A stretch of 61,646 nucleotides of DNA from Rhodocyclales bacterium RIFCSPLOWO2_02_FULL_63_24 (GTDB lineage: Bacteria > Pseudomonadota > Gammaproteobacteria > Burkholderiales > Rhodocyclaceae): the NCBI GenBank assembly GCA_001828935.1, contig MHZX01000049.1, positions 1-61,646 on the forward strand, written 5' to 3'. Position 1 is the stretch's first letter. The number at the start of each line of letters is the position of its first letter. Shown here piece by piece: positions 36,174 to 51,522 of the stretch. A model generated the notes under the pieces. That model was given only the letters and a program-made list of their open reading frames with translations, was not told the origin of the DNA and searched no databases. Made by a program: the position numbers and the translations under genes.

Positions 36174-37628
36174 ATGAACGACGGGAATCTGGCCGAAATG
36201 CAGGCGCAGTTGGCGGACTTGCATGAGCAAGTGCGCCGCCTGAGCGAGGAAAATGCCCACTGGCGAAGCATCGCCGAAGATACCGACAACGGCCGCATCA
36301 TGCTGCGACGGGAAGCTGAACTGGAACTGATCAAGGAGGTAGGTACCGCCATCCTGGTCGAACGCGATCTGCAAAAGGTGCTCGATCTGGTCGCCGACAT
36401 GGCACGCAAGCTGACCGGCGCGGAAATGGCGGTACTGCCGCTGATGGACGAGGACCGCAGCACCTATACCTACGCCGCGGCGGTCGGCAAGCATGCCGAG
36501 GAAGTGCTGGGCAGCCGCCACGGGCTGGACATGGGCATGTGCGGCTGGGTGTTGACCCATGAACGCCCGCTGCTGTTCGGCCAGCCGGAAGGATGGTGGA
36601 TGGACAGCAGGACGCGCTGGGAGGAAGGCATGGAATCCGCTGTGCTGGTGCCGCTCTGCGCACAACAGCGGATCATTGGCGGCATATCCGTCCTGGGCAA
36701 GACCGGCGGCGGCAGTTTCAGCCAGCATGACCTGGATATGCTGACCTTGCTGGCCAACCAGGTCAGCCACGCGATCGAAAACGCGCGTCTGGTCCAGGAA
36801 GCCAAGCAGTTGGTCGCCACCCTGGAACAACGCGTCTGCGACCGTACCTCGGAAATGACGGCGCTCAACAAGGAGTTGGAAGCCTTCGCCTATTCCGTTT
36901 CGCACGATCTGCGCGCACCGATACGCAGCATCGACGGCTTCAGCCTGGCCTTGCTCGAAGACTATGGCGAGCACCTGGACCCGGAAGCCCAGGATTACCT
37001 GAGCCGCATCCGTGGCGCGACCCTGCGCATGGGCCGGCTGATCGACGACATGCTGAAGCTGTCGAGACTGTCGCGCACCGAGATGTATCACGAGACGGTA
37101 AACCTGAGCGCCATGGCAAAACGCATCGCCGAGGATTTGCTGACACGCGAACCGGAACGCCACGTCGAGTTTTGTATCGCCGAGAATTTGACGGTCAGGG
37201 GCGACACCAGCCTGATCAACGGCTTGATGGAAAACCTGCTCGGCAATGCATGGAAATTTTGTTCGAAGCATGCCACGGCGCAGATCGAGTTTGGCATTCT
37301 CGACCAGTCGGAAGAGCACGGCGAAAATTCCGGACACATGCGCACCTTTTTTGTCCGCGACGACGGCGCCGGCTTCGACATGAGCTATGCCGCAAAACTG
37401 TTCGGGGCGTTCCAGCGCCTGCATACTGCGCAGCAGTTTCCCGGCACCGGTGTGGGTCTTGCCTTTGTCCAACGCATCATCAACCGCCATGGCGGCCGCA
37501 TTTGGGCGAAGGGCGCACCGGAGAAAGGCGCGACCTTCTATTTCACGCTGGCACAACCGCCGCACGAGGATAGCGCCAAGCCCCCCGCGATATTGCGCAT
37601 TTCCCGCGTGCCGCTGCCCGATCGCTGA
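36174..37628 (+). CDS. GAF-domain sensor histidine kinase
   Basis: A 484-residue cytoplasmic kinase with an N-terminal coiled coil (about 1-30), GAF (about 45-200), a linker coiled coil, a HisKA domain with the phospho-acceptor in SVSHDLRAPIR, and a HATPase with N-box ENLLGNAWKF, G1 RDDGAGFDM and G2 FPGTGVGLAFV. It resembles bacteriophytochrome-type kinases without the bilin-binding PHY region. An Rcp1-like response regulator follows 47 bases later, so phosphotransfer between them is likely. Confidence 0.88.
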   Translation: MNDGNLAEMQAQLADLHEQVRRLSEENAHWRSIAEDTDNGRIMLRREAELELIKEVGTAILVERDLQKVLDLVADMARKLTGAEMAVLPLMDEDRSTYTYAAAVGKHAEEVLGSRHGLDMGMCGWVLTHERPLLFGQPEGWWMDSRTRWEEGMESAVLVPLCAQQRIIGGISVLGKTGGGSFSQHDLDMLTLLANQVSHAIENARLVQEAKQLVATLEQRVCDRTSEMTALNKELEAFAYSVSHDLRAPIRSIDGFSLALLEDYGEHLDPEAQDYLSRIRGATLRMGRLIDDMLKLSRLSRTEMYHETVNLSAMAKRIAEDLLTREPERHVEFCIAENLTVRGDTSLINGLMENLLGNAWKFCSKHATAQIEFGILDQSEEHGENSGHMRTFFVRDDGAGFDMSYAAKLFGAFQRLHTAQQFPGTGVGLAFVQRIINRHGGRIWAKGAPEKGATFYFTLAQPPHEDSAKPPAILRISRVPLPDR

Positions 37629-37675
37629 ACCAAACGGCGAAGGCGCGCCGCAGAAGTGATTACCAGGAGAAAACG

Positions 37676-38134
37676 ATGGAAGAAGTTGAAGACAAATACA
37701 TACTGCTGATCGAGGACAATCCCGACGATACGGCGCTCGCCCTGCGCGCTTTCAAACGAGCGCATATCCGCAACAAGATCGTCTGCGTCGACGACGGGGT
37801 AGAGGCCGTAGACTTTCTTTTCGGCCAGGGCGCTTACGCGCAGCGCGACATCGACCTGTTGCCGCAACTGATACTGCTCGACCTGAACATGCCACGCATG
37901 AACGGCCTGGAAGTCCTCCAGAAAATCCGTTCGACGCCGCACACCCGGCGCCTGCCGGTAGTCATTCTGACCACCTCCAACGAAGAGCGGGATCTGATAC
38001 AAAGCTATGACCTGGGCGCCAACAGCTACGTCCGCAAACCGGTGGACTATGACCAGTTCGTCGCCGCCGTATCCCAGCTTGGGCTTTACTGGCTGGTACT
38101 CAACGAACTGCCGCAGGCGGTTCGCAAGCCCTGA
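37676..38134 (+). CDS. Single-domain response regulator (Rcp1-like)
   Basis: A 152-residue receiver without output domain. The acidic pocket (LIEDNPDDTAL), phospho-Asp69 (LLDLNMPRMNG), the Thr of LTTSNEERD and the Lys of VRKPVDY are all present. The extended form is typical of phytochrome-partner regulators. It probably relays phosphate from the upstream GAF kinase to another protein. Confidence 0.92.
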   Translation: MEEVEDKYILLIEDNPDDTALALRAFKRAHIRNKIVCVDDGVEAVDFLFGQGAYAQRDIDLLPQLILLDLNMPRMNGLEVLQKIRSTPHTRRLPVVILTTSNEERDLIQSYDLGANSYVRKPVDYDQFVAAVSQLGLYWLVLNELPQAVRKP

Positions 38135-38149
38135 GAGCGGCCGGCCGCC

Positions 38150-39859
38150 ATGAGCAATTCCCTGCACGTACTGCATGTCGAGGACGACGAGAATGAAGGC
38201 GTGCTGCTCAGGCGCGAGCTGCGCCAGGGGGGGTACGATCCGGTAATCCATCGGGTGGAAACCGAGGAAGCCATGCGCCAGGCGCTGATGGACAGGACCT
38301 GGGATCTGGTGATCGCGGATTTTTCCCTCCCCGCGTTCAACGGACTGGATGCCCTGCGGGTGTGCCGCGAATCCGAGCCTGACCTTCCTTTCATCATGTT
38401 TTCGGGCACCATCGGCGAACGCACCGCGGTCACCGCGATGAAGGCCGGCGCCAACGACATCATCATGAAGGACCACAAGTCGCGGCTGGTGCCGGCGCTC
38501 GAACGCGAGCTGCGCGACGCTAGGGAACGCGCGGCGCGCCGGCGCGCCGAGGCGGAACTGAGCCATCAGGCGCTGCACGACCCGCTCACCGGCCTGTACA
38601 ACCGGCGCGCCTTCGAACAACGCCTGCTGTGCAGCCTCAACGAAGCACGCCAGTTCGATACCCAGCATGTGTTGTGCATGATGGACCTGGATCAGTTCAA
38701 GGTCATCAACGACACCTGCGGCCACGTCGCAGGCGACGAGATGCTGCGCCAGATCAGCGCCATCCTCAGCGAAAATGTGCGCCACGGCGATACGCTCGCG
38801 CGACTCGGCGGCGATGAGTTCGGCATTTTGCTCAACGCCTGTCCGATAGAAGAAGCCAGCCGTGTCACCAGCGCGCTGCTGGATGCCCTCCAGGGCTTTC
38901 GCTTTGTCTGCGAGGGCAAAGTATTCGGCGTTGGCGGCAGCATCGGCATGGTAGTCATCGATGCCGACACCGAGAGTACCCAGACCCTGCTCAGCAATGC
39001 CGACAACGCCTGCTACCTGGCCAAAGAAAAGGGCCGCGGACGGGCGCAGGTATTCAAGCCGGACGACCAGGAACTCATCACGCGGCACCGGGAAATGCAA
39101 TGGGTCGCCCGCCTCGGGGAGGCTCTGGAAAAAGACCGTTTCGTGCTCTATCAGCAACCTATCGTCACCATCGGCGAGAGCGGCATGCCGATTCATCACT
39201 GGGAAATCCTGGTGCGCATGCGCGAGCAGGACGGCACACTGGTGCGCCCCGGCGTCTTCATCCCGGCCGCTGAACGCTACAACCTGATGAGGAACATCGA
39301 CCATTGCGTGGTACAGAAGGTTATCGACTGGCTGGAGCGACGCCTCCGGGAAGGACAGCCCCTACCGCACCTGATGGTCAACCTGTCCGGCGTGTCGCTG
39401 TCGGACGAGAGTTTTCTCGAACGCCTTGCAACTCGCATGCGCGCTACGCCTGTGCTCGCCCAGCAGATATGTTTCGAGATTACCGAGACCTCGGCCATTC
39501 GCCATCTCGCCGCGACGATCCGCTTCATCCATGAACTCAAGCGCCTTGGCGTGCAGTTCGCGCTTGATGACTTCGGCAGCGGCGCCGCATCCTTCACCTA
39601 TTTGCGCACCTTGCCGGTGGACTACATCAAGATCGACGGCCACTTCGTCAAGGACATCGCCACCGACTCATTCGATCATGCGATCGTCGAGGCCATCCAC
39701 CGCATCGCCCAAACCGCGAATCTGAAAACCATCGCCGAATTTGTCGAGAATGACGAAGTGCTGGCGCACGTCCGGGCCATCGGCATCGACTACGCACAGG
39801 GCTATGGCATCGCCGAACCCGCGCCGCTGGAGGACCTGGTTTTCCCCGGCGTGCAGTAA
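38150..39859 (+). CDS. Response regulator with GGDEF and EAL domains
   Basis: A 569-residue protein with a receiver (phospho-Asp57 in DLVIADFSLP), a GGDEF domain (about 140-300, GGDEF at 220-224 with RLGGDEFGIL) and an EAL domain (about 320-560). The EAL signature reads EIL (HHWEILVRM), and the second catalytic motif DDFGSG, the Glu of FEITET and the KIDG are intact. It could be bifunctional for cyclic di-GMP. It is the output of the upstream kinase-regulator pair. Confidence 0.92.
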   Translation: MSNSLHVLHVEDDENEGVLLRRELRQGGYDPVIHRVETEEAMRQALMDRTWDLVIADFSLPAFNGLDALRVCRESEPDLPFIMFSGTIGERTAVTAMKAGANDIIMKDHKSRLVPALERELRDARERAARRRAEAELSHQALHDPLTGLYNRRAFEQRLLCSLNEARQFDTQHVLCMMDLDQFKVINDTCGHVAGDEMLRQISAILSENVRHGDTLARLGGDEFGILLNACPIEEASRVTSALLDALQGFRFVCEGKVFGVGGSIGMVVIDADTESTQTLLSNADNACYLAKEKGRGRAQVFKPDDQELITRHREMQWVARLGEALEKDRFVLYQQPIVTIGESGMPIHHWEILVRMREQDGTLVRPGVFIPAAERYNLMRNIDHCVVQKVIDWLERRLREGQPLPHLMVNLSGVSLSDESFLERLATRMRATPVLAQQICFEITETSAIRHLAATIRFIHELKRLGVQFALDDFGSGAASFTYLRTLPVDYIKIDGHFVKDIATDSFDHAIVEAIHRIAQTANLKTIAEFVENDEVLAHVRAIGIDYAQGYGIAEPAPLEDLVFPGVQ

Positions 39860-40150: not shown

Positions 40151-42013
40151 TTGATCGAGCATGCCAACACAGTTTCAGCGCTGCGGCTTTCGCAGCCACC
40201 ACAGCAGATGCAGCAGCAGAGTCCATTCGACGCGGCCGACCTGATTGTTTCCTATCTTGAGAGCATCGGCGTCGAGTATGTATTCGGTATTCCAGGCGGC
40301 GCCGTCGAACCCCTTTTCAATGCCCTCGCCCGCAGCCAACGGCGCGGCGGACTGCGCCCAATCGTGGCCCGGCACGAATCCGGGGCGGCCTTCATGGCCG
40401 ACGGCTACGCCCGCGAGACGGGCAAGATCGGCGTCTGCGTGTCGACCTCCGGCCCCGGCGCCACCAACATGATCACCGGGGTTGCCTGTGCATTCGACAA
40501 CGGCATTCCGCTGCTGGCCATCACCGGCCAGCCCGCCCTGCCGTCCTTTGGCCGTCGTCCGTTCCAGGAGTCGGGCTGCACCGGAATCAATGTGGTCGGC
40601 ATGTTCCGCCATTGCACCGCATACAACTCGCTGGTTTCCCACAGCGCCCAGGTAGAGACCAAGCTGGTCAATGCGTTGATGCGCGCCAACCAGCTGCAGC
40701 GCCCGGTACACCTCTCGATCCCGGTCGATGTGATGCGCAGTCCGCTCGAACATCAGCCGCATGCCACGCTGGCCTACGACTTGCCGTCGCTGCTGACCAA
40801 ACCCTCGCTGGTGGACGAACTCACGGTGCATGAGCTCTGCGACGAGATCAAGCGCTCGCGCCGAATCGTGTTCATCATCGGCGGCGGCTGCGCGGACGGA
40901 ATCGCCCCGATCATGGAACTGATCGGGCTGACCAACGCGCTGTTCGTCTGTACGCCGGATGGCAAGGGCCTGGTCAATACCCATCACAGGGCCTGCCGCG
41001 GGGTGTTCGGCTTTGCCGGCCACGCCTCGGCCAGCGAGGTGCTGCTGAGCGAGCCTGACCTCATCATAGCGATAGGCACCAGCATGGGCGAATGGAACAG
41101 CAGCGCCTGGAGCGAAGCCATACTCAACGATCGGCTGGTGCATATCGATGTTTCGGAGGAGCGCTTGATGCGCACTCCGATGGCGCGACTGCACGTCCAG
41201 GGACGCATTCAGACCGTCTGCGAACGCCTGATCACTATCCTGCGGGCAAGTACCGACGCCCGAACGGAAACAAGGAGTCATGGCGTCGCCGCAAACATCA
41301 CCGAGCCACGGCACGCCGAAACGGCCGACCATCCGCCGACGATGTGCGGCGACGACGCGGCGCCAATCAAGCCCCAGCAACTGATGCGCCAGCTATCCCG
41401 CCGCTGCCCGCCCTCCACGCGCTTCCTGGCGGATACGGGCAACAGCACGGCCTGGGCGGTGCACTGCCTGCAAAGGAAAAACCGCCGCATGGCCAACCAT
41501 CGTCTGACGCCAGCCCTCGCTGCCGGCGTCGACGGGGAACAACGCCGCCGCGATTCCATCTGGTTGCGGGTCATCATGGACTTTGCCCCGATGGGCTGGG
41601 CCATCGGGGCCGCGATCGGCGTCGCGCGCGCCGACCAAAGCGGCCCCGTGGTCTGCATTACCGGCGACGGCAGCTATCTCATGAACGGCCAGGAAATCAC
41701 CGTCGCGGCCTGCGAACAACTCTGCGTGCTGTTCATTATCCTCAACGACGGTGCGCTGGGCATGGTCAAGCATGGACAACGGCTGACCGGTGCCGAACCT
41801 ATCGCCTTCGAGCTGCCCAAGGTGGATTTCTGCATGATGGCCGCGGCGATGGGTATCCCGGGACACGTCATAAACTCGCCGGCCGATCTCGATGCGCTCG
41901 ACTTCGATGCCATCTTCAAGCGCCCTGGCCCGACCCTGCTCGACGTGCGCATCGACGGCGAGGAAGTGCCGCCGATGAACGTCCGCATCAAGAGCTTGAC
42001 CGCCGCCGCATGA
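40151..42013 (+). CDS. Thiamine-diphosphate-dependent enzyme (acetolactate synthase-like)
   Basis: A 620-residue ThDP enzyme of the acetolactate synthase/benzoylformate decarboxylase family. The catalytic Glu76 is in RHESGAAFMADGYAR and the ThDP motif begins GDGSYL at 505 and ends with N532. It ends RIDGEEVPPMNVRI as IlvB-like proteins do. A poorly conserved insert lies near 366-405. The start is TTG at 40151, supported by GGAGGG six bases before. An ATG at 40208 would also be possible but would lose a run of Gln. It heads a six-gene operon and overlaps the SDR gene by ATGA. Confidence 0.85.
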   Translation: MIEHANTVSALRLSQPPQQMQQQSPFDAADLIVSYLESIGVEYVFGIPGGAVEPLFNALARSQRRGGLRPIVARHESGAAFMADGYARETGKIGVCVSTSGPGATNMITGVACAFDNGIPLLAITGQPALPSFGRRPFQESGCTGINVVGMFRHCTAYNSLVSHSAQVETKLVNALMRANQLQRPVHLSIPVDVMRSPLEHQPHATLAYDLPSLLTKPSLVDELTVHELCDEIKRSRRIVFIIGGGCADGIAPIMELIGLTNALFVCTPDGKGLVNTHHRACRGVFGFAGHASASEVLLSEPDLIIAIGTSMGEWNSSAWSEAILNDRLVHIDVSEERLMRTPMARLHVQGRIQTVCERLITILRASTDARTETRSHGVAANITEPRHAETADHPPTMCGDDAAPIKPQQLMRQLSRRCPPSTRFLADTGNSTAWAVHCLQRKNRRMANHRLTPALAAGVDGEQRRRDSIWLRVIMDFAPMGWAIGAAIGVARADQSGPVVCITGDGSYLMNGQEITVAACEQLCVLFIILNDGALGMVKHGQRLTGAEPIAFELPKVDFCMMAAAMGIPGHVINSPADLDALDFDAIFKRPGPTLLDVRIDGEEVPPMNVRIKSLTAAA

Positions 42014-42783
42014 ACAACGCATCGATCGCAGCGACGAAAAAACTGGGCGGCAAGGCCGCACTGATCACGGGGGGCTCCAGCGGCATCGGTCTTGCCACCG
42101 CCAGGCTCTTCCTGGAAGAAGGCGCGCGTGTGGCAATAACCGGGCGCGACGCGGACAGCCTGGCGCGGGCGCAGAAAACCCTGGGCGCGGAAACCCTGGT
42201 GGTCAAGAGCGATGCGAGCAACCTGGGCCAGATCGAAGCGCTGATGGCTCAGGTGCGGGACCGTTACGAGCGAATCGACGTTTTGTTCGTGAATGCTGGG
42301 ATTGCCCGAGCTGCTGCATTCGAGGAAGTGTCCGAAGCCCAGTTCGACGAGATCGTGGCGATCAACTTCAAGGGAGCTTTCTTCACCATCCAGAAGGCAT
42401 TGCCGCTGCTCGCCGCCAATGCGGCGGTCATCGTCACGACTTCGATTGCAAACCGCAAGGGGGCCCCGGATTACAGCGTCTACGCTGCCAGCAAGGCCGC
42501 GCTGCGCTCGCTGGTGCAGTCCCTGGGGTTGGCCCTGATCGGGCGCGGAATTCGCGTCAATGCGATCAGCCCGGGCCCGGTCGCCACGCCCATGTTCGGC
42601 CGCAGCGGCCTGCCCGAGGAACTGATGCAGGCGCGCAAGCGTGCCTTGGCGGAGAAATCGCCCATCAAACGCCTTGCCACACCGGAAGAGATAGCCCGGG
42701 TGGCGCTGTTTCTCGCCAGCGATGACTCCTCCTACATGGTCGGCGCGGAAATCGTTGTCGACGGCGCGATCGGCATTCTCTGA
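42010..42783 (+). CDS. SDR family oxidoreductase
   Basis: A 257-residue short-chain dehydrogenase with a normal cofactor site (ITGGSSGIGLATA), NAGIA, catalytic Ser in TTSIANRKGAP and YAASK. The C-terminus (VGAEIVVDGAIGIL) is typical of the family. It probably reduces or oxidises the acyloin or ketone product of the ThDP enzyme (inference). It is coupled to the ThDP gene by an ATGA overlap, and the citrate-synthase-like gene starts 14 bases after its stop. Confidence 0.88.
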   Translation: MNNASIAATKKLGGKAALITGGSSGIGLATARLFLEEGARVAITGRDADSLARAQKTLGAETLVVKSDASNLGQIEALMAQVRDRYERIDVLFVNAGIARAAAFEEVSEAQFDEIVAINFKGAFFTIQKALPLLAANAAVIVTTSIANRKGAPDYSVYAASKAALRSLVQSLGLALIGRGIRVNAISPGPVATPMFGRSGLPEELMQARKRALAEKSPIKRLATPEEIARVALFLASDDSSYMVGAEIVVDGAIGIL

Positions 42784-42797
42784 AAGGAGGGGAGCAA

Positions 42798-43634
42798 ATG
42801 AGCGACACGGTGCCTGAACAAAGACTGAGCGACGTCGATCCGGCGGACGTGGTTCATACCCGGATATGGCGCGAAGACGCTGAAGCGGACAATCCCTTCG
42901 CCACACGAGCCGCCTACTGCCGGGGCTACGACGTTTTCGGCCAAATGGTCGGACGCGCGCGCTGGGTGGAAATGCTGTTCCTGCTGTTTCGCGACGACTT
43001 GCCTGGCGACAGCGCGCTCGATGCCATTGAAGCGCTGGCGGTCGCCCTGGCCAATCCCGGCCCCCGTGATCCGTCCATCCATGCGGCGATGTGCGGCGGT
43101 GTCGGCGGCTCCAGTGCGGCGGCCAGCCTGATAGCGGCACTTTCGGTCGGCGCCGGGCGCTATCGTGGTGCGCGTGACGTGTTCGATGCGATGACGGCCT
43201 GGCGTCGCTGCGGCACCGACATCGAGGCGTGGCTTGCCCATGTCCGCCGCGACACATGCAATGACGTCGAAATCTGGCCGGCACGCGAACATCCGGCCGG
43301 ATTCGATCCGCACGGTGTTTCCATGACAACGCCGGTAAAGCAGTTGCTGGGAACCCTGGCGGGTATCGCCAACACGCCCAGGCTGAACTGGCTGACACAG
43401 CACCGGCAGGAGATGGAAGCCGCCATAGGGTTTCCGCTGGATATTTCCGGTGTCGCCGCCGCCGCTCTGGCCGATTTGGAGTTCACTCCGGCCGAGGGCG
43501 AGATGCTCTACCTGCTGCTGCGGCTACCGGGCGCGGCTGCGCATGCCCTGGAACAGGAAAAGCTGGGTTACAAGCGCTTCCCCTTTTACCCCGTCGAACT
43601 GGAAGACGATCCCGCAAACAAGGAATCAACATGA
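42798..43634 (+). CDS. Citrate synthase / citryl-CoA lyase-fold protein, first of a pair
   Basis: A 278-residue protein related to citrate synthases. The N-terminal RGYDVFGQMVGRARWVEMLF and LPGDSALDAIEALAVA match the family start, and RLPGAAAHALEQE matches its end. In the LHGGA position it reads GAGRYRGARDVF, so the first catalytic His appears absent. The GFGHxVY position may be represented by GFDPHG. It is shorter than citrate synthases (about 430) and close to citryl-CoA lyases (about 270). It overlaps the next gene by ATGA. Activity cannot be predicted. Confidence 0.72.
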   Translation: MSDTVPEQRLSDVDPADVVHTRIWREDAEADNPFATRAAYCRGYDVFGQMVGRARWVEMLFLLFRDDLPGDSALDAIEALAVALANPGPRDPSIHAAMCGGVGGSSAAASLIAALSVGAGRYRGARDVFDAMTAWRRCGTDIEAWLAHVRRDTCNDVEIWPAREHPAGFDPHGVSMTTPVKQLLGTLAGIANTPRLNWLTQHRQEMEAAIGFPLDISGVAAAALADLEFTPAEGEMLYLLLRLPGAAAHALEQEKLGYKRFPFYPVELEDDPANKEST

Positions 43635-44434
43635 GCGGCCCGGAACTATTGGCATCCTGCGCAGGCGTACTGCGCACCAGGATGGGCGCGTTCTGGCCCG
43701 GCCAGCGCGCGGTATTTCGCGGTCGCGACCTGCACCAAGAATTGCGCAATTCCGACTGGCTCGCGCTCTACATGTTCGGCATTACCGGGCGGCAGTTCAC
43801 GCCACAGCAGTTGAAGCTGCTGCACGGCATCTGGGTGATCACCAGCTACCCCGACACGCGCCTGTGGAATAACCGTGTCGCCGGCCTCGCCGGGACGGCG
43901 CGCAGTTCGCCGACGCTCGGACTTTCCGCCGCGCTGGCCGTTTCCGAGGCGACCATTTACGGCGGCGGCGCCGGCATACGGGCCTTCGATTTCATCACGC
44001 GTGCCGCGAAGGCTACGGAAGCAGGCCTAGTGTTGCGCGATTTTGTCAGCGAGGAAGTGAATTCCCGTTATCTCTATGGCTACGGCCGTCCCATCCATCG
44101 CAATGACGAGCGTTTGCAATGGCTGGCCAGCCTCGCCGAGGAACAGGGCCTCGCTTCTGGCAAACATTTCAAGCTGGCGTTCGAAGTCGGCAAAACCCTG
44201 GTCGAGATCGGCAAACCCAACCTGCGCATGAACTACGCCGGGATGGTCGCGCCCCTCGGCGCCGACCTGGGGCTGTCGCGACGGGAATTCCAGTTGTTCC
44301 GCGTCCCCCTGTTCTTTGCCGGCATGCCGCCGTGCTGGCTCGAAGCGGCCGACAAACCGGAAGGCACGCTATTCCCAACCCCCTGCGACAAGATCGTGTA
44401 CGAAGGCGTCAAGCAGCGCGCCTGGCGCGCTTGA
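43631..44434 (+). CDS. Citrate synthase / citryl-CoA lyase-fold protein, second of a pair
   Basis: A 267-residue citrate-synthase-fold protein. IYGGGAGIRAFDFI occupies the LHGGANE position (His replaced by Tyr). GYGRPIHRNDERL occupies the GFGHPVYK-DPR position (His replaced by Arg). NLRMNYAGMV lies at the Asp-bearing NVDFYSG site (no Asp). All three usual catalytic residues therefore seem changed, though the fold is recognisable by spacing. It likely forms a heterodimer with the product of the preceding gene. It ends 12 bases before the sulfotransferase gene. Confidence 0.7.
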   Translation: MSGPELLASCAGVLRTRMGAFWPGQRAVFRGRDLHQELRNSDWLALYMFGITGRQFTPQQLKLLHGIWVITSYPDTRLWNNRVAGLAGTARSSPTLGLSAALAVSEATIYGGGAGIRAFDFITRAAKATEAGLVLRDFVSEEVNSRYLYGYGRPIHRNDERLQWLASLAEEQGLASGKHFKLAFEVGKTLVEIGKPNLRMNYAGMVAPLGADLGLSRREFQLFRVPLFFAGMPPCWLEAADKPEGTLFPTPCDKIVYEGVKQRAWRA

Positions 44435-44446
44435 CACACACATACC

Positions 44447-45718
44447 ATGGATATCCAGCCCAGCACGCACTACCACTCCCAGGTAGTCAATGACTTCAAC
44501 AGCAGCCGGCAAGGGCAAGTGCCGATCGACCTCTCCGAGGCGGCCTTGCTGGCCGAAGCGCGCAAGGAAACCGGGCTGGATCGCCTGGGCGACGAAAGCT
44601 TCCTGCCGGCCATGCGGGCATTGCTGACATCGCTGGAAGCCGACGCCCAACTCAATCCATTTGGCCGCTTCGTGGCGAAATCGCGCAGCCTGAACGCGCT
44701 CAGGAACCGACTCTGGGCCAACGCCTGTTTCGAGGCCCATCCAGAGATCCGGCAGCGCAAACTGCCCGCACCGATCGTCGTCATCGGACCGCACCGCTCC
44801 GGCACGACGCGCATGCACAGCATGATGGCCGCGGATGCGCGATTGCGGCATCTGCAGGCGTGGGAGGGAATCAACCCCGCGCCCCGGCTGGGGCAGCCGG
44901 ATGCGGGGAAAGCAGCGCGCTTCGACGAAGTCAAACAGATGCTGGATACCCGCGCGGGAATCTATCCGGGCGCCTACCTGGCCCACCCGATGCGGGCGGA
45001 TTGGCCCGAAGAAGAAATGCTACTGCTGAATCAATCATTTTGCGGCTTTTCTCCCTTGGGTCTCTACCACGTTCCAGGCTATTACCAATGGTTCCTCGGC
45101 GCCGACAAGACCGCCGGCTACCGCTACATGGCGGACCTGATGAAGCTGATTTCGTGGTCGCAAAACGAGGCGGAAGACAAGCGCTGGATATTGAAGAATC
45201 CCCAGCACATGCTGGACCTCGGCGTGCTTTTGGAAGTTTTCCCTGACGCAAAACTGGTATTCACACACAGAGACCCGCTGAAGACCGTCGGCTCTACCTT
45301 GTCGCTGATGTGGTACTACACGGTCCAGCATACCGATCAGCCCTGCCGCGCGCAGGTCAGGGACATCTGGCTGGACTTCTGCGAGCAGGCCGCGCGCCGC
45401 TGCATGCGCCTGCGCGAGCACATTCCCGAAGCGCAGCAGATCGATATCCATTACGAGGCCATGAACCACGATTGGCGTCATGTAATGCAGCGCATCTATG
45501 ATTTTGCCGACATGGAATTTGTACCGGAGGCCGAACGGGCAATGGCAAGCTGGCTGGACATAAGCAACAGCGAGAAGACCCATGGCGGCCATCGCTATTC
45601 CCTGGAAGATTTCGGCACCAGCCGCGACGAAGTGGATGCGCGCCTGATGTTTGCCCGGGAAAAATATGCCATCCCTTACGAAGACAGGCCAATCATCAAA
45701 ACTGGGGAACAGGCATGA
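44447..45718 (+). CDS. PAPS-dependent sulfotransferase
   Basis: A 423-residue sulfotransferase. The PAPS 5'-phosphosulfate loop reads GPHRSGTTR (114-122) and the 3'-phosphate region is VFTHRDPLKTVGSTLS (about 265-280) with conserved Arg and Ser. The C-terminal half has a Trp-rich helix and the family ending with EDFG...DEVDARL. No signal peptide is visible. It would sulfate a hydroxyl on a small molecule or lipid. The next gene, APS kinase, overlaps it by ATGA, so PAPS supply and use are coupled. Confidence 0.88.
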   Translation: MDIQPSTHYHSQVVNDFNSSRQGQVPIDLSEAALLAEARKETGLDRLGDESFLPAMRALLTSLEADAQLNPFGRFVAKSRSLNALRNRLWANACFEAHPEIRQRKLPAPIVVIGPHRSGTTRMHSMMAADARLRHLQAWEGINPAPRLGQPDAGKAARFDEVKQMLDTRAGIYPGAYLAHPMRADWPEEEMLLLNQSFCGFSPLGLYHVPGYYQWFLGADKTAGYRYMADLMKLISWSQNEAEDKRWILKNPQHMLDLGVLLEVFPDAKLVFTHRDPLKTVGSTLSLMWYYTVQHTDQPCRAQVRDIWLDFCEQAARRCMRLREHIPEAQQIDIHYEAMNHDWRHVMQRIYDFADMEFVPEAERAMASWLDISNSEKTHGGHRYSLEDFGTSRDEVDARLMFAREKYAIPYEDRPIIKTGEQA

Positions 45719-46437
45719 TCCGAAATCCTGATGCACGCTTCGACGAATCCTGTCACGACAGCACCGTCAGCCAGAATATTGCCTGGCATGGCAGCAAGGT
45801 CGCTGCCGCCGACCGGACCCGACTTTTGCGCCAGGAGCCGGCAACCGTCTGGCTGACCGGATTGTCAGGCGCCGGAAAATCGACCATCGCCTTCGAGGTC
45901 GAAAAGCGGCTGTTTGCGCTCGGACATGCGAGCTATGTGCTGGATGGCGACAACGTGCGCCACGGCCTCAACCGCGATCTGGGGTTCTCGCATGGGGATC
46001 GTACCGAGAACATCCGGCGTATCGCCGAGTTGGCCCGCCTGTTCAACGAAGCCGGATTGATCGTGATCGCCGCGTTCATCTCCCCCTATCGCCAGGATCG
46101 CGTTATGGCCCGGGAGATTATCGGCCCGGAAAGGTTCATCGAAACCCATCTGTGCGCAGAACTGGAGGTCTGTGAGCAGCGGGATCCGAAGGGGCTCTAC
46201 AAAAAGGCGCGCCAAGGCGCGATTGCCGAGTTCACGGGCGTCACGGCCCCCTATGAGGTTCCCGAAGATCCGGAACTGAAAATTGATACGGGACGCTCGA
46301 CGGTCGAGGATAGTGTTTCGGCAATCATCAAAGCGCTCGCACCGCGTCTGTTTCAGGCTGAGCCCATAGCGGCACGATCCTGCGGGACAGAACGGCCGTA
46401 TTCCCGGCAAATTGACCTCAAAACTAGTGCGGCATAG
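45715..46437 (+). CDS. cysC: Adenylyl-sulfate kinase (PAPS-forming)
   Basis: A 240-residue APS kinase. Walker A GLSGAGKST is at 49-57, then the DGDNVRHGLNRDLGFS APS site and the ISPYRQDR and GLYKKARQG lid segments. The N-terminal tail of about 45 residues and the C-terminal 30-residue extension exceed the family core. It produces PAPS from APS, so an ATP sulfurylase must be encoded elsewhere. It is translationally coupled to the sulfotransferase gene and ends the operon. Confidence 0.93.
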   Translation: MIRNPDARFDESCHDSTVSQNIAWHGSKVAAADRTRLLRQEPATVWLTGLSGAGKSTIAFEVEKRLFALGHASYVLDGDNVRHGLNRDLGFSHGDRTENIRRIAELARLFNEAGLIVIAAFISPYRQDRVMAREIIGPERFIETHLCAELEVCEQRDPKGLYKKARQGAIAEFTGVTAPYEVPEDPELKIDTGRSTVEDSVSAIIKALAPRLFQAEPIAARSCGTERPYSRQIDLKTSAA

Positions 46438-46507: not shown

Positions 46508-47329
46508 ATGACAACCTCAACCATGAGCATCGATCAGCCTCGTGACTCATTGAAATTTAAGGCAATGCAGTGGCTTCCTCTGTTAATTTTGTTGGGCTGC
46601 ATGCTGTTCCCTGCCCCGTCTGTATTCAGCCAGACCGGAGCCACGGCTCCCATCCCGTTTGTCATGGGCTTCGACGAGGACCCGAAGGTATTTGGTACTG
46701 CCTGGAGCCAGCGCATTTACACCGAAGCATTCAAGCGCTTGGGAATTCCGATGCAGGCCAACTTCTACCCCCTGGCGCGCCGCGCCGCCTTGGTGGATGA
46801 GGGCGCCATCGATGGCGACGCCGCGCGCGTCCACGGCTATGGCGCGGCACATCCGAATCTGGTTAGGATCGAAGAGTCCGTAATGGACTTCAATTTTGCG
46901 CTGTTCACCGCGCACGCGACGCTACCGCTCCAGCGCCTGGAAGATCTATCTGGATCAAGCTTGCTAGCGGAATACCGACGCGGCATCCTGCTCTGCGAAA
47001 ATACCTTGAAGCCCTTGGTGCCGCCGGAAAGGCTATCGAACGTAACGAGCGAGCAGCAGGGCCTGAAGAAACTTCTGGCCAAACGTACCGATGTCTATTG
47101 CGATCTCGAAAGCGTCGTCAAACAGGGGCTCGCGTCGCCCGAACTCAAGGGCACCACGGGCATCCGCAAGATCGTCACTATCGGCCATCTCCAGACCTAT
47201 CCGTATTTCAACAAAAAGCGCGCCGATCTTGCGCCGCGCATGGCAGCCACACTGAAGCAGATGAAAGCCGAGGGTCTGATCGATGCCTTCCGGCAGCAAG
47301 CGGAACGCGAGCTCGGGTGGACACAGTGA
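46508..47329 (+). CDS. Periplasmic substrate-binding protein (ABC amino-acid type)
   Basis: A 273-residue exported protein. A ribosome site AAGGAG (46498-46503) precedes the ATG, and a long N-terminal segment (about residues 20-41, QWLPLLILLGCMLFPAPS) acts as signal or anchor. The rest resembles solute-binding proteins of the PBP-II type (YPLARRAALVDEGAIDGDAA, RGILLCENTLKPL). No ABC permease or ATPase is near; the following genes are a histidine kinase and a GGDEF-EAL protein. It is therefore probably a sensor partner rather than a transporter subunit. Confidence 0.72.
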   Translation: MTTSTMSIDQPRDSLKFKAMQWLPLLILLGCMLFPAPSVFSQTGATAPIPFVMGFDEDPKVFGTAWSQRIYTEAFKRLGIPMQANFYPLARRAALVDEGAIDGDAARVHGYGAAHPNLVRIEESVMDFNFALFTAHATLPLQRLEDLSGSSLLAEYRRGILLCENTLKPLVPPERLSNVTSEQQGLKKLLAKRTDVYCDLESVVKQGLASPELKGTTGIRKIVTIGHLQTYPYFNKKRADLAPRMAATLKQMKAEGLIDAFRQQAERELGWTQ

Positions 47330-47379: not shown

Positions 47380-48843
47380 ATGGATGTCAAAACACTGATA
47401 TTCGGCAAGGAAAACCGCATCGGCCGTCGGCTGATCGTATTTGTCATTGCCTTCAGCTCGCTGATTACCCTCTGCGTATCAATTGTCCAGCTCGCGCTCG
47501 AATATCGCGGACTGCGCAGCGCGATGGACCGGCAACTCGACAACATCGGCATTTATGTGCCGACCATAGAAGGCAGCGTCTGGGACTTCGACGAGAAGCA
47601 GATCCAGCGTGCGCTGGATGCCCTGGTGCTGCTCCCCGACGTGGCCAGGGTCCGCGTTATCGCTGCCGAGCAAGGCAGCCAGTGGTCCGCGGGCAAGATT
47701 GCTTCCGCCAACACCGTGACGAGAACCTTTGCGCTGAAACACGAACACCGGGGCGAGAACAAGGAAATCGGCACGCTGGATCTGGTTGCCAGCCTCGACG
47801 GCATCTACGCGCAGGTGCTGTCGAGTGCGATCTCGATCCTCGTCAGCAACGCGCTGAAGACCTTCCTCGTCGCGGTGTTCATGGTCATCCTGATCCGGCG
47901 GCTGCTGACGACCCGTCTCGAAGGCATGGCGCGCAAGGTGCACGAGTTGATCCCCGGCATGCTGCCGGTGCGTCAACTGGTGGAAAACGAGCCGCAGCCT
48001 ATACCGACCGCGCTTGACGAACTGGATGCCGTGAACTGGGCGTTGGACAAGACCACCGAAGACCTCGGCATTGCGGTCGGAGCCTTGCAGGAAAACAACG
48101 AAAAGCTCGACCAGACGGTAAAAGACCGGACCAAGGCGCTGGAAGAAGCGATTACGGAGCTCAAGGCCTTCAGCTACGCGGTGTCCCACGACATGAAGGC
48201 ACCATTGCGCGCCATGAGCGGCTATTGCACGATGCTGCAGGAGGATTTCGCGGACCAGCTCGGCGCGGAAGGCGCGGGGGTGGCGTCACGGATTGTCGCC
48301 GCCGCCGAACGCATGGATTTGCTGATTAACGACACGCTGGGCTTGTATAGCGTCTCCGCATCGACGTTCAAGCCGGAGCGCGTCGACCTGACCCGGATGG
48401 CCAGGGAAATTGCCGACCAGTTTGCGCAGATCGACCCGAAACGCACGATCGAATGGAACATCGAGGAGGGCTTGCTGGCCGAGGGCGATCCTGGTCTGCT
48501 GCGTACCGCGCTGGAAAATCTGATCGGCAATGCGTGGAAATACAGCGGCAAGCGCGAGGTCGCGCAGATTGCCGTCGGCAAACGCCTGGAGAGCGACGGT
48601 AAAGTGGTCAATTACGTCAAGGACAATGGCGCGGGCTTCGATATGGCCTATGCAAACAAGCTGTTCATGCCCTTCAAACGACTTCACCACGAATCGGAGT
48701 TCCCCGGTACCGGAGTCGGCCTGGCGACCGTCCGCAAAATCGTCTCCCGCCACGGCGGCCGCGTCTGGGCCGAATCCGGAATCGATCAGGGCTCGACTTT
48801 CTACTTCACGCTGAACGAGACGCCGCCAGCGGCGCCGGATTGA
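47380..48843 (+). CDS. Membrane sensor histidine kinase
   Basis: A 487-residue kinase. TM1 is near 17-37, followed by a periplasmic sensor (about 40-145) with the SVWDFDEKQIQ motif and TM2 near 147-170. A HAMP-like/coiled linker, HisKA with SVSHDMKAPLRAM and HATPase (N-box ENLIGNAWKY, DNGAGFDM, FPGTGVGLAT) follow. The N-terminal 300 residues are closely similar to those of the GGDEF-EAL protein at 49093. It likely senses via the periplasmic binding protein encoded 50 bases upstream. A cognate response regulator is not adjacent. Confidence 0.85.
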   Translation: MDVKTLIFGKENRIGRRLIVFVIAFSSLITLCVSIVQLALEYRGLRSAMDRQLDNIGIYVPTIEGSVWDFDEKQIQRALDALVLLPDVARVRVIAAEQGSQWSAGKIASANTVTRTFALKHEHRGENKEIGTLDLVASLDGIYAQVLSSAISILVSNALKTFLVAVFMVILIRRLLTTRLEGMARKVHELIPGMLPVRQLVENEPQPIPTALDELDAVNWALDKTTEDLGIAVGALQENNEKLDQTVKDRTKALEEAITELKAFSYAVSHDMKAPLRAMSGYCTMLQEDFADQLGAEGAGVASRIVAAAERMDLLINDTLGLYSVSASTFKPERVDLTRMAREIADQFAQIDPKRTIEWNIEEGLLAEGDPGLLRTALENLIGNAWKYSGKREVAQIAVGKRLESDGKVVNYVKDNGAGFDMAYANKLFMPFKRLHHESEFPGTGVGLATVRKIVSRHGGRVWAESGIDQGSTFYFTLNETPPAAPD

Positions 48844-49092: not shown

Positions 49093-51522
49093 ATGGCGAA
49101 CTTCAGGAACCTCGTCTTTGGCGAGAGAAACCGCATTGGCCGTCGGCTGATCGTTCTGATTATCGCCTTCAGTTCGCTGATCACTCTCTGTATCTCGGCG
49201 ATTCAACTGACGCTCGAATACCGCGAACTGCGCAGCAGCGTCGATCGCGTGCTCGACGGAATCGAAATCCACCTTCCCAGCGTAGCCGGCAGTGTCTGGG
49301 ATTTCGACGAAAAACAGATACAACTGACTTTGGGCGGCTTGGAGCAGCTGCCGCATGTCGAACGAGTCAGCATCGCCACAGCCAACGGCCGCCCACGCTG
49401 GGTCGCCGGCAAAATCATGTCATCCCAGGTGGAGAAACGCAGCTATGTGCTTCGCTACATGGATCGCGGCAAGGAAGTCGAGATCGGAACGCTGGAAGCC
49501 GTAGCAAGCCTTGACGCGATCTACCGGCAGATCGTCGCCCGGGCGATAACCATAGTGTCCAGCAACGCGCTGAAGACTTTCTTCGTCGCCCTGTTCATGA
49601 TGCTCCTGTTTCGTCGGCTGGTGACAAAACGGCTCGACCAGCTGGCAAACAAAGTGACCACCCTGGTCCCGGAAACCCTGTCCTTGCCGCAACTCGCCGA
49701 AGCGGCATCCCACGTGATACCCGATCATCTGGACGAGCTGGATACGGTGGACTGGACCCTCGACCATACCGCGGAAAAACTGGCTATTGCGGTCGAGGCG
49801 CTGAAGACGCTGAACCAGGAACTGCAGCAGCGGGTGATCGAGAAGGACGTGATCCTGCAGAACGCGCTGGTCGGCATCCTCATGCTGCGCGAAGGCGAGA
49901 TCGTGTCGTGCAACCGGCGCCTCGAAGAAATCTTCGGCTATGGCGGCGGCGAAATGACCGGTTTGTCGACGCGGGTGCTCTACCCCACAGAACACGCCTA
50001 TACGTCATTCCGGGAAAAGGCCCATGCCGTACTCGGCAACGGCTTGAGCTTCAACGACACCCTGGTCCAATTGAAGCGGGACGGCACCCCGCTGTGGGTC
50101 GAGATCACCGGGCGCGCCCTGGATCCGCAAAAACCGGATGATGGCAGCATCTGGATTTGCTCGGACGTCACCGATCGCAAGGCGGCCGAGGAGAAAATCA
50201 AGTTCATCGCCTTTCACGACGCGCTCACCGGCTTGCCCAATCGCCTGTTGGTGCAGGATCGCCTGCAGCAGGCCATGGCCAGTGCCGACCGGGCAAAGGC
50301 CAAGGTTGCGCTGCTGGTTCTGGATCTGGACAACTTCAAGACCATCAACGACTCGCTCGGACATTCGGTCGGCGATGGCGTGATCCGCGAGATTGCCAGG
50401 CGTCTGACCGACGGCGTGCGCGACACCGACACGGTTTGCCGCCAAGGCGGCGACGAGTTTGTGATTCTGCTGCCGAACCTTCCCGACGCCGAGGCCACCG
50501 CCCCGATTCTCGTCCAGTTGATGGACCGCTTCGCCGATCCCTGCCGGGTGGACGGCCACGAACTCACGACCTCGGTCTCGGTAGGCATCGCCATTTATCC
50601 CGATGACGGCAGGGACCTCGATACGCTGATGAAGAAGGCGGACCTGGCGATGTACCAGGCCAAGGATGCCGGACGCAACACCTATCGCTTCTTCGACCAG
50701 CAGATGAACATCGAGGCCATCGAACAATTGAGCATGCGCAACGGGCTGCGACGCGCGCTGGCCAACGATGAATTCATCCTGCATTACCAGCCGCAGATCG
50801 ATCTCGCCAGCAACACGGTAACCGGCGTCGAGGCACTGATCCGCTGGAACCACCCGGAGTTCGGCATGATCCCGCCCGGCCGATTTATTCCGGTCGCCGA
50901 GGACAGCGGCCTGATCGTACCGATCAGCGAATGGGTGCTGCGCGAGGCATGCCGGCAGGCGGCCCTCTGGAGCAAGTCAGAAGGGAGTTCCCTGACGGTG
51001 GCGGTCAACCTGTCCGCGGTCCAGTTCAAGCGCAGCAACGTCGAACAATCGGTCATTGCCGCCTTGGAAGAGTCGGGGATCGATCCGTCCCTGCTCGAAC
51101 TGGAACTCACCGAATCGATCCTGATCACCGACACCGAGACCGTACTCAATACGGTCAGGCGCCTCAAGCAACTGGGCGTGAAGTTGTCGATCGACGACTT
51201 CGGCACGGGCTATTCGAGTCTGTCTTACCTCAAGCGCTTCCAGGTGAATACGCTGAAAATAGACCAGTCCTTCGTGCGCGATCTGGCGACCGATCAGGAG
51301 GATGCCGCCATCGTCGGCGCCATCATCCAGATGGCGCACAGTCTCGGCCTGACCACCATCGCCGAGGGCGTCGAGACGCAGCCGATTCTGGACCAGTTGC
51401 GGGCTTTTGGTTGCGACCAGGCGCAGGGCTATTTCTACGCGCGGCCGATGCCGGCAGATGATGTACTGGCCTATCGGCACCGGATGCAAGCCGCATCCAG
51501 CAGCGCCAAGAGCGCGGCATGA
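49093..51522 (+). CDS. Membrane sensor PAS-GGDEF-EAL protein
   Basis: An 809-residue protein. The same N-terminal sensor as the kinase before it (TM1, SVWDFDEKQIQ periplasmic domain, TM2) is joined to a PAS (about 250-375), GGDEF (375-545, GGDEF at 452-456) and EAL (VEALIRWNHPE, ELTESILI, DDFGTGYSSLSYL). Both catalytic modules look intact. It likely makes or degrades cyclic di-GMP in response to the same periplasmic signal as the kinase. Confidence 0.9.
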   Translation: MANFRNLVFGERNRIGRRLIVLIIAFSSLITLCISAIQLTLEYRELRSSVDRVLDGIEIHLPSVAGSVWDFDEKQIQLTLGGLEQLPHVERVSIATANGRPRWVAGKIMSSQVEKRSYVLRYMDRGKEVEIGTLEAVASLDAIYRQIVARAITIVSSNALKTFFVALFMMLLFRRLVTKRLDQLANKVTTLVPETLSLPQLAEAASHVIPDHLDELDTVDWTLDHTAEKLAIAVEALKTLNQELQQRVIEKDVILQNALVGILMLREGEIVSCNRRLEEIFGYGGGEMTGLSTRVLYPTEHAYTSFREKAHAVLGNGLSFNDTLVQLKRDGTPLWVEITGRALDPQKPDDGSIWICSDVTDRKAAEEKIKFIAFHDALTGLPNRLLVQDRLQQAMASADRAKAKVALLVLDLDNFKTINDSLGHSVGDGVIREIARRLTDGVRDTDTVCRQGGDEFVILLPNLPDAEATAPILVQLMDRFADPCRVDGHELTTSVSVGIAIYPDDGRDLDTLMKKADLAMYQAKDAGRNTYRFFDQQMNIEAIEQLSMRNGLRRALANDEFILHYQPQIDLASNTVTGVEALIRWNHPEFGMIPPGRFIPVAEDSGLIVPISEWVLREACRQAALWSKSEGSSLTVAVNLSAVQFKRSNVEQSVIAALEESGIDPSLLELELTESILITDTETVLNTVRRLKQLGVKLSIDDFGTGYSSLSYLKRFQVNTLKIDQSFVRDLATDQEDAAIVGAIIQMAHSLGLTTIAEGVETQPILDQLRAFGCDQAQGYFYARPMPADDVLAYRHRMQAASSSAKSAA

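Follow-up and report, generated by a model that had tools for sequence, protein, structure and literature searches.

A sulfotransferase operon of a Rhodocyclales bacterium and the conserved synthase and TonB receptor gene set to which it belongs: a predicted signalling, or possibly metal-scavenging, system not described before

The DNA analysed here (the window; 61,646 nucleotides, contig MHZX01000049.1 of Rhodocyclales bacterium RIFCSPLOWO2_02_FULL_63_24) carries a six-gene sulfotransferase operon at positions 40151..46437. Its core consists of the genes for a thiamine diphosphate (ThDP)-dependent carboligase and for CSa and CSb, two proteins with the fold of citryl-coenzyme A (CoA) lyase. 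In many genomes the genes of this putative three-gene synthase have those of a TonB-dependent receptor, a sensor and a periplasmic binding protein for neighbours. We predict that the conserved set serves bacterial signalling, or possibly metal scavenging, in a way not yet described. On sequence comparison, we give an even chance to a more specific reading: the operon would be a variant of the three-gene synthase whose product is a small molecule that is secreted, sulfated in this strain, captured by a TonB receptor and sensed in the periplasm, and which changes cyclic di-GMP (c-di-GMP). Directly observed are the genes and the conservation of their neighbourhood, the co-occurrence across genomes, a single strong kinase for adenosine 5'-phosphosulfate (APS) and the tree patterns. 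No description of the locus was found in the open-access literature searched, in agreement with the original prediction, which knew of no described pathway with these genes.

The six genes were re-read from the window, and all coordinates given in that prediction were exact. So were the three ATGA overlaps (42010, 43631 and 45715) and the two gaps (14 and 12 bases). All six genes are on the forward strand. The acetolactate-synthase-like carboligase gene (40151..42013; Pfam TPP_enzyme N, M and C, conserved motifs) starts with TTG and has GGAGGG upstream. It is followed by an optional tailoring gene for a short-chain dehydrogenase/reductase (SDR; 42010..42783, Pfam SDR) and by the two further core synthase genes, CSa (42798..43634) and CSb (43631..44434). 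Both were assigned by profile search and predicted fold, and all three catalytic positions are changed in CSb. An optional sulfation cassette completes the operon. It comprises a sulfotransferase dependent on 3'-phosphoadenosine 5'-phosphosulfate (PAPS) (44447..45718; Pfam Sulfotransfer_3, 132 bits) and the APS kinase CysC as its PAPS supply (45715..46437; Pfam APS_kinase, 223 bits). Scans for promoters and terminators gave no signal exceeding that of shuffled sequence.

Gene neighbourhoods were compared at 67 loci, namely 35 near loci (19 from named genomes and 16 from genomes of the same family) and 32 class-wide loci. The latter come from a sample of 369 genomes, 43 of them with CSb; 32 of the 42 besides the window's genome were taken in. 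The carriers belong to many families of a single class, and those with names include Gallionella, Sulfuricella, Noviherbaspirillum, Pelomonas and Rhodocyclales. The trio of ThDP enzyme, CSa and CSb is complete at 59/67 loci and lies on one strand at 58; among the near loci, the ThDP gene was found at 32/35 and CSa at 33/35. All six genes occur together at 2/67 loci only, in the order of the window at L002 and in another order, with the receptor gene interspersed, at L008. The operon had been proposed as a functional unit, with conserved gene order as the check. A functional unit is supported, but what is conserved is the trio and not the set of six: SDR (8/35), sulfotransferase (6/35) and APS kinase (8/35) are optional at near loci, and none of them was found at the 32 class-wide loci. 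As a side observation, the SDR, CSb and CSa genes of locus L152 (6578-17383, genome G440) are flanked by ThDP genes and TonB receptors, two of each.

At 57/67 loci (30/35 near, 27/32 class-wide), the synthase has a homologous TonB-dependent receptor within about 10 kb. The lowest match score, 76 bits, belongs to a gene at a contig edge, and all others reach at least 232 bits. A PF04392-type periplasmic binding protein is present at 52/67 loci (30/35 and 22/32) and a sensor-like match at 54/67 (29/35 and 25/32). Receptor, binding protein and sensor-like match stand together at 50/67 loci; trio, receptor and binding protein do so at 47/67. The layout at the class-wide loci is much the same as at the near loci, at about 23-55% identity. 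PF04392 was matched in 12/12 binding proteins scanned, 11 of which exceed the cut-off. In neighbour clustering at the near loci, the members of the recurrent sensor family are large, and their output is of the histidine-kinase type, the GGDEF-EAL type or both. Among four sensors scanned (L011:16305-20792, L077:12632-15121, L008:4882-7176 and L139:13637-15337), three have an sCache_4-HAMP input and the fourth has HAMP without an sCache_4 match. The outputs of these three are swapped (kinase-receiver-GGDEF-EAL, GGDEF-EAL and kinase only).

The clustering relied on a rough gene caller that sometimes returned open reading frames (ORFs) in the wrong frame, and locus counts were therefore taken from separate homologue searches. 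Within these rough gene calls, no neighbour family besides the core families was common to more than 6/35 near loci. No permease was seen among families common to at least 4/35, the rest of the genomes not being searched. The absence of a recurrent permease favours periplasmic sensing over uptake as food. A family of about 870 amino acids at five near loci (L010, L013, L015, L057, L059) was taken as housekeeping, its single scanned member, that of L010, being aconitase B. The original prediction had noted that transporters are absent and that the fate of the product is open. The former is true of the operon itself, whereas the conserved locus does have a TonB receptor. The latter is less open than stated, as receptor, periplasmic binding protein and sensor accompany the synthase.

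In the window's genome (G000), a TonB receptor, a PF04392 protein with a hydrophobic N-terminus and a sensor of 829 residues (sCache_4-HAMP-PAS-GGDEF-EAL) lie side by side on contig C29, away from the operon. The sister genome G132, which carries operon L002, likewise has an unlinked receptor module (L162); for distance and tree comparisons, L162 and L002 were treated as belonging to a single genome. CSb is single-copy in the window's genome. Across 199 genomes of the same family, 17 have both synthase and receptor, three the synthase only, six the receptor only and 173 neither (Fisher p 6e-17). Counted by genus (68 genera), the numbers are 13, 1, 3 and 51 (p 2e-10). Common ancestry and physical linkage inflate these p values. 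Linkage does not fully explain the co-occurrence, since synthase and receptor are unlinked in G000 and G132. Genomes were scored as CSb-positive at E <1e-30 (20/199, including a fragment in G075), leaving uncounted the matches at E 1e-4 to 1e-3 in longer frames. Receptor-positive meant a score of >900 bits, plus G129 (560 bits, a split receptor beside the synthase); G088, G050 and G023 (532-616 bits) were not counted. Pairwise distances of CSb and receptor correlate with r = 0.80 over 54 pairs, a value reached in 0/999 permutations, and shared descent contributes to it. Receptor modules without a CSb match in the genome were found at L156 (G017), L157 (G025) and L158-L161; the genomes concerned are possible receivers only.

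Among solved structures, the closest relatives of the window's ThDP enzyme are BbmA (283 bits) and CsmA (243 bits), ahead of acetolactate synthases. BbmA (PDB 8x3x/8x3y/8xod) and CsmA (8x3z) are likewise ThDP enzymes, and the comparison with them was made at the sequence level. Catalytic Glu76 and the GDG and LND motifs (the ThDP-activating Glu and GDG...N) are kept in 31/31 aligned sequences. Domain order, catalytic Glu and GDG...N motif are common to the acetolactate synthase (acetohydroxyacid synthase, AHAS) family. The best 25 of the 54 NCBIfam models that were matched, however, all stayed under their cut-offs, the top one with 288 bits against 538 required. YerE and JanthE (PMC12247030) were considered as ThDP precedents and dropped, as nothing tied them to the gene set, though their sequences were not compared with it.

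For CSa and CSb, no Pfam family was found at E<=0.001; CSa matched Citrate_synt with 12.5 bits at a cut-off of 27. The citryl-CoA lyase models of NCBIfam gave 55 and 41 bits, both under the model cut-offs, and a profile search of solved structures found citryl-CoA lyase 6hxp for both. AlphaFold models of the two proteins (predicted local distance difference test, pLDDT, 83.5 and 86.6) had citryl-CoA lyases as top Foldseek matches. The template modelling (TM) scores were 0.54-0.75 by query length and the protein lengths are also alike, whereas root-mean-square deviations are large (about 5-10 Å). CSa and CSb also match each other in profile comparison (probability 96). In citryl-CoA lyase or citrate synthase (6hxp) the protein is encoded by one gene; here two divergent genes adjoin.

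We take His274, His320 and Asp375 (pig numbering) to be the catalytic residues of citrate synthase. These positions were compared in 30 CSa and 32 CSb rows, out of those found. CSb lacks His at 114 and 153 and Asp at 203 in 32/32 aligned sequences, and Arg153 is invariant in all 32. CSa has Asp at 217 in 0/30 and His at 123 in 2/30; the position matching His320 is ambiguous, with a nearby His165 in 21/30. Since other residues of CSb (W79, N80, N81, R82, D159, E160 and R161) are invariant in the alignment, the protein is constrained and not decaying. As judged from its changed catalytic positions, CSb is unlikely to perform citrate-synthase chemistry. Of the two divergent citrate-synthase-fold proteins proposed earlier, the fold is thus borne out by profile search and by AlphaFold and Foldseek, whereas CSb is without any catalytic residue (0/32). 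Two gene arrangements are recorded in addition. At L056 (7917-12382, G013), CSa occurs twice and CSb three times in a single run after the ThDP and SDR genes, and at L058 (8526-8897) CSa is present only as a frame of 123 residues, perhaps owing to a frameshift, a pseudogene or an assembly error.

Besides the window, sulfotransferase orthologues were found at L002, L007, L008 (two), L009, L011 and L058. An APS kinase is present at 6/6 near loci with a sulfotransferase, once on the opposite strand. In Noviherbaspirillum (L007, L009, L011) the order is ThDP-CSa-CSb-receptor-sulfotransferase-APS kinase-binding protein-sensor on a single strand. Orthologues with >700 bits occur in 3/199 genomes of the family, all with CSb, and the next match has 311 bits. 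In a plasmid collection, all sulfotransferase relatives were <60% identical and no CSb match was obtained. The APS kinase of the operon is the only strong one in the window's genome; the second match has 20.8 bits over 50 positions. CysH of this genome has CC and CxxC cysteine pairs, which we take to be the signature of APS reductases. PAPS is therefore likely made for sulfation, and the APS kinase, whose gene is linked to that of the sulfotransferase, is likely not needed for assimilation. The sole strong kinase and the paired cysteines of CysH support the dedicated PAPS supply proposed at the outset.

Trees were calculated under LG+G4 without mixture. When 62 receptors were placed in a tree, those of six sulfotransferase genomes, out of seven, shared one set of eight rows with the receiver-only genomes G017 and G025. 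Over 28 shared taxa, the receptors of these six form one side of a branch (support 70/86, weak). The ThDP enzymes of the same six genomes are not grouped, and forcing them together costs 326 log-likelihood units (approximately unbiased test, p-AU 2e-28; 28 taxa). With receiver-only rows uncounted, the fewest changes of the sulfotransferase label are two for the receptor, three for CSa, four each for the ThDP enzyme and CSb, and five for the binding protein. Instead of a matching of receptor and sulfation, the pattern may also reflect a transfer of receptor and cassette together.

For the proposed route, we assume that the ThDP enzyme decarboxylates a 2-oxo acid and ligates the resulting acyl anion to an acceptor. 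A partner bearing CoA or a carboxylate would be bound or processed by CSa and CSb, probably paired as a heterodimer, in a reaction unlike that of citrate synthase. An alcohol would arise from a ketone through the SDR, and a hydroxyl group would receive sulfate from the sulfotransferase, with PAPS made by the APS kinase. The product would leave the cell. The TonB receptor of the C29 module may then carry the molecule into the periplasm, and the PF04392 binding protein there would hand it over to the sensor with sCache_4-HAMP-PAS-GGDEF-EAL architecture. We prefer a signal as the nature of the molecule because binding protein and sensor are what recurs with the receptor, whereas no permease was seen to recur. 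Only tentatively do we go further and suggest a new class of signals: a family of small molecules made by a ThDP enzyme and a repurposed lyase-fold pair would be recaptured by a dedicated TonB receptor and read by the periplasmic binding protein together with a c-di-GMP sensor. In some lineages sulfate would mark the molecule as a private dialect, to which the receiver-only G017 and G025, whose receptors belong to the same clade, would listen without being producers.

Several observations weigh against this signalling interpretation. No exporter is conserved at the loci, and 10/67 loci show no receptor, some of them at contig edges. Of the five near loci concerned, two (L005 and L054) end next to CSb where the contig stops, L066 has a fragmentary CSb, L056 is without a receptor and L002 has it elsewhere in its genome. 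G013 (100% complete) carries the synthase genes, yet no orthologue of the receptor was found in it at E 1e-80. The same lack of a receptor orthologue was seen in G516 and G299, which have synthase genes, and in G163, G075 (CSb fragment) and G334 (CSb with no ThDP or CSa gene nearby). Kinase and GGDEF/EAL genes being common, the sensor-like matches may include bystanders. The grouping of receptors is weakly supported, first appeared in a quick tree and does not include L058, the seventh sulfotransferase genome. Once receiver-only rows are counted, four changes are needed for the receptor, no fewer than for the ThDP enzyme or CSb. The idea that every part tracks the sulfotransferase was rejected, as the binding-protein tree with its five changes does not.

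The main rival is a metallophore system: a chelator made by the synthase would come back as a metal complex through the TonB receptor, and its return would be reported by the sensor. Metal complexes are frequent cargo of TonB-dependent receptors, and the closest solved relatives found with the receptor profile (the colicin I, B12, PirA and ferric enterobactin receptors) also fit this explanation. We nevertheless regard it as possible but unlikely, given that the recurrent partner is a sensor and that no inner-membrane permease recurs among the roughly called neighbours. The best Fur-box matches were 10/19 upstream of the window's ThDP gene and 12/19 upstream of the genome's own receptor; over 31 loci they ranged from 9 to 13 of 19, compared to 8 to 12 in shuffled copies. 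It is rather improbable that the sulfated compound stays in the cell or the envelope, with the receptor module as a coincidental neighbour in many genomes. The lack of a secretion gene, the unlinked module in the window's genome and in sister G132, and some complete genomes with synthase and no receptor orthologue are in line with such a compound, but receptor homologues lie near the synthase at 57/67 loci, and the receptor is present in the genome where it does not adjoin (G000, G132, G254, G391). Least probable, and in our view very improbable, is a catabolic route in which a TonB substrate is taken up, sensed and broken down with CSa/CSb as a working lyase. TonB receptor, binding protein and enzymes are also a catabolic layout, and the predicted fold of CSa/CSb is that of citryl-CoA lyase. 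Against this, the catalytic residues are absent in CSb (0/32) and the Asp in CSa (0/30), a sulfotransferase with APS kinase adds sulfate instead of removing it, and no permease recurs in the rough gene calls.

Further signalling genes flank the operon, all on the forward strand. A periplasmic solute-binding-like protein, so assigned from its sequence, is encoded at 46508..47329. It has no Pfam match even at E 5, is also found 3' of the operon in the sister genome (L002, 78% identity), and has matches at E 1e-20 in 6/199 family genomes including its own, which holds three copies. A CHASE5 sensor histidine kinase follows (47380..48843; conserved after the operon in L002, 71% identity), and then a CHASE5-PAS-GGDEF-EAL protein (49093..51522), whose GGDEF-EAL output half shares 68% identity with the corresponding half of the C29 sensor. 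Because of this identity and the conserved flank in L002, the operon can be said to be surrounded by signalling genes with kinship to the receptor module found elsewhere in its genome. A GAF histidine kinase (36174-37628), a response regulator-like ORF (37676-38134) and a response regulator-GGDEF-EAL protein (38150-39859) lie upstream; these genes (36174..39859) are possibly part of the same island.

If the signalling interpretation is true, it would offer a testable new natural-product chemistry, in which a ThDP enzyme works with non-canonical partners of citrate-synthase fold, and a direct link from a self-made molecule to c-di-GMP. As the sulfation cassette is optional, the specificity of ligand and receptor can be tested between lineages bearing and lacking the sulfotransferase.

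Parts of the gene set resemble known systems. In the sulfated-signal systems NodPQ-NodH and RaxPQ-RaxST (PMC4216712, on RaxPQ/RaxST with a reference to NodH/NodPQ), genes for PAPS production supply a sulfotransferase that acts on a signal to be exported, and the operon studied here also pairs an APS kinase with a sulfotransferase. It differs in its partner genes and synthase and in being without an ATP sulfurylase. With siderophore and metallophore systems, the loci have a TonB-dependent receptor in common. In sensing of the LuxP-LuxQ type, a binding protein stands beside a membrane sensor with no permease. The loci described here differ from it in having a PF04392 binding protein, mostly an sCache_4 input, a GGDEF/EAL or kinase output and a TonB receptor. 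Finally, linked synthase and receptor genes are a feature of autoinducer (quorum-sensing) systems, and such linkage was found here at 57 of the 67 loci.

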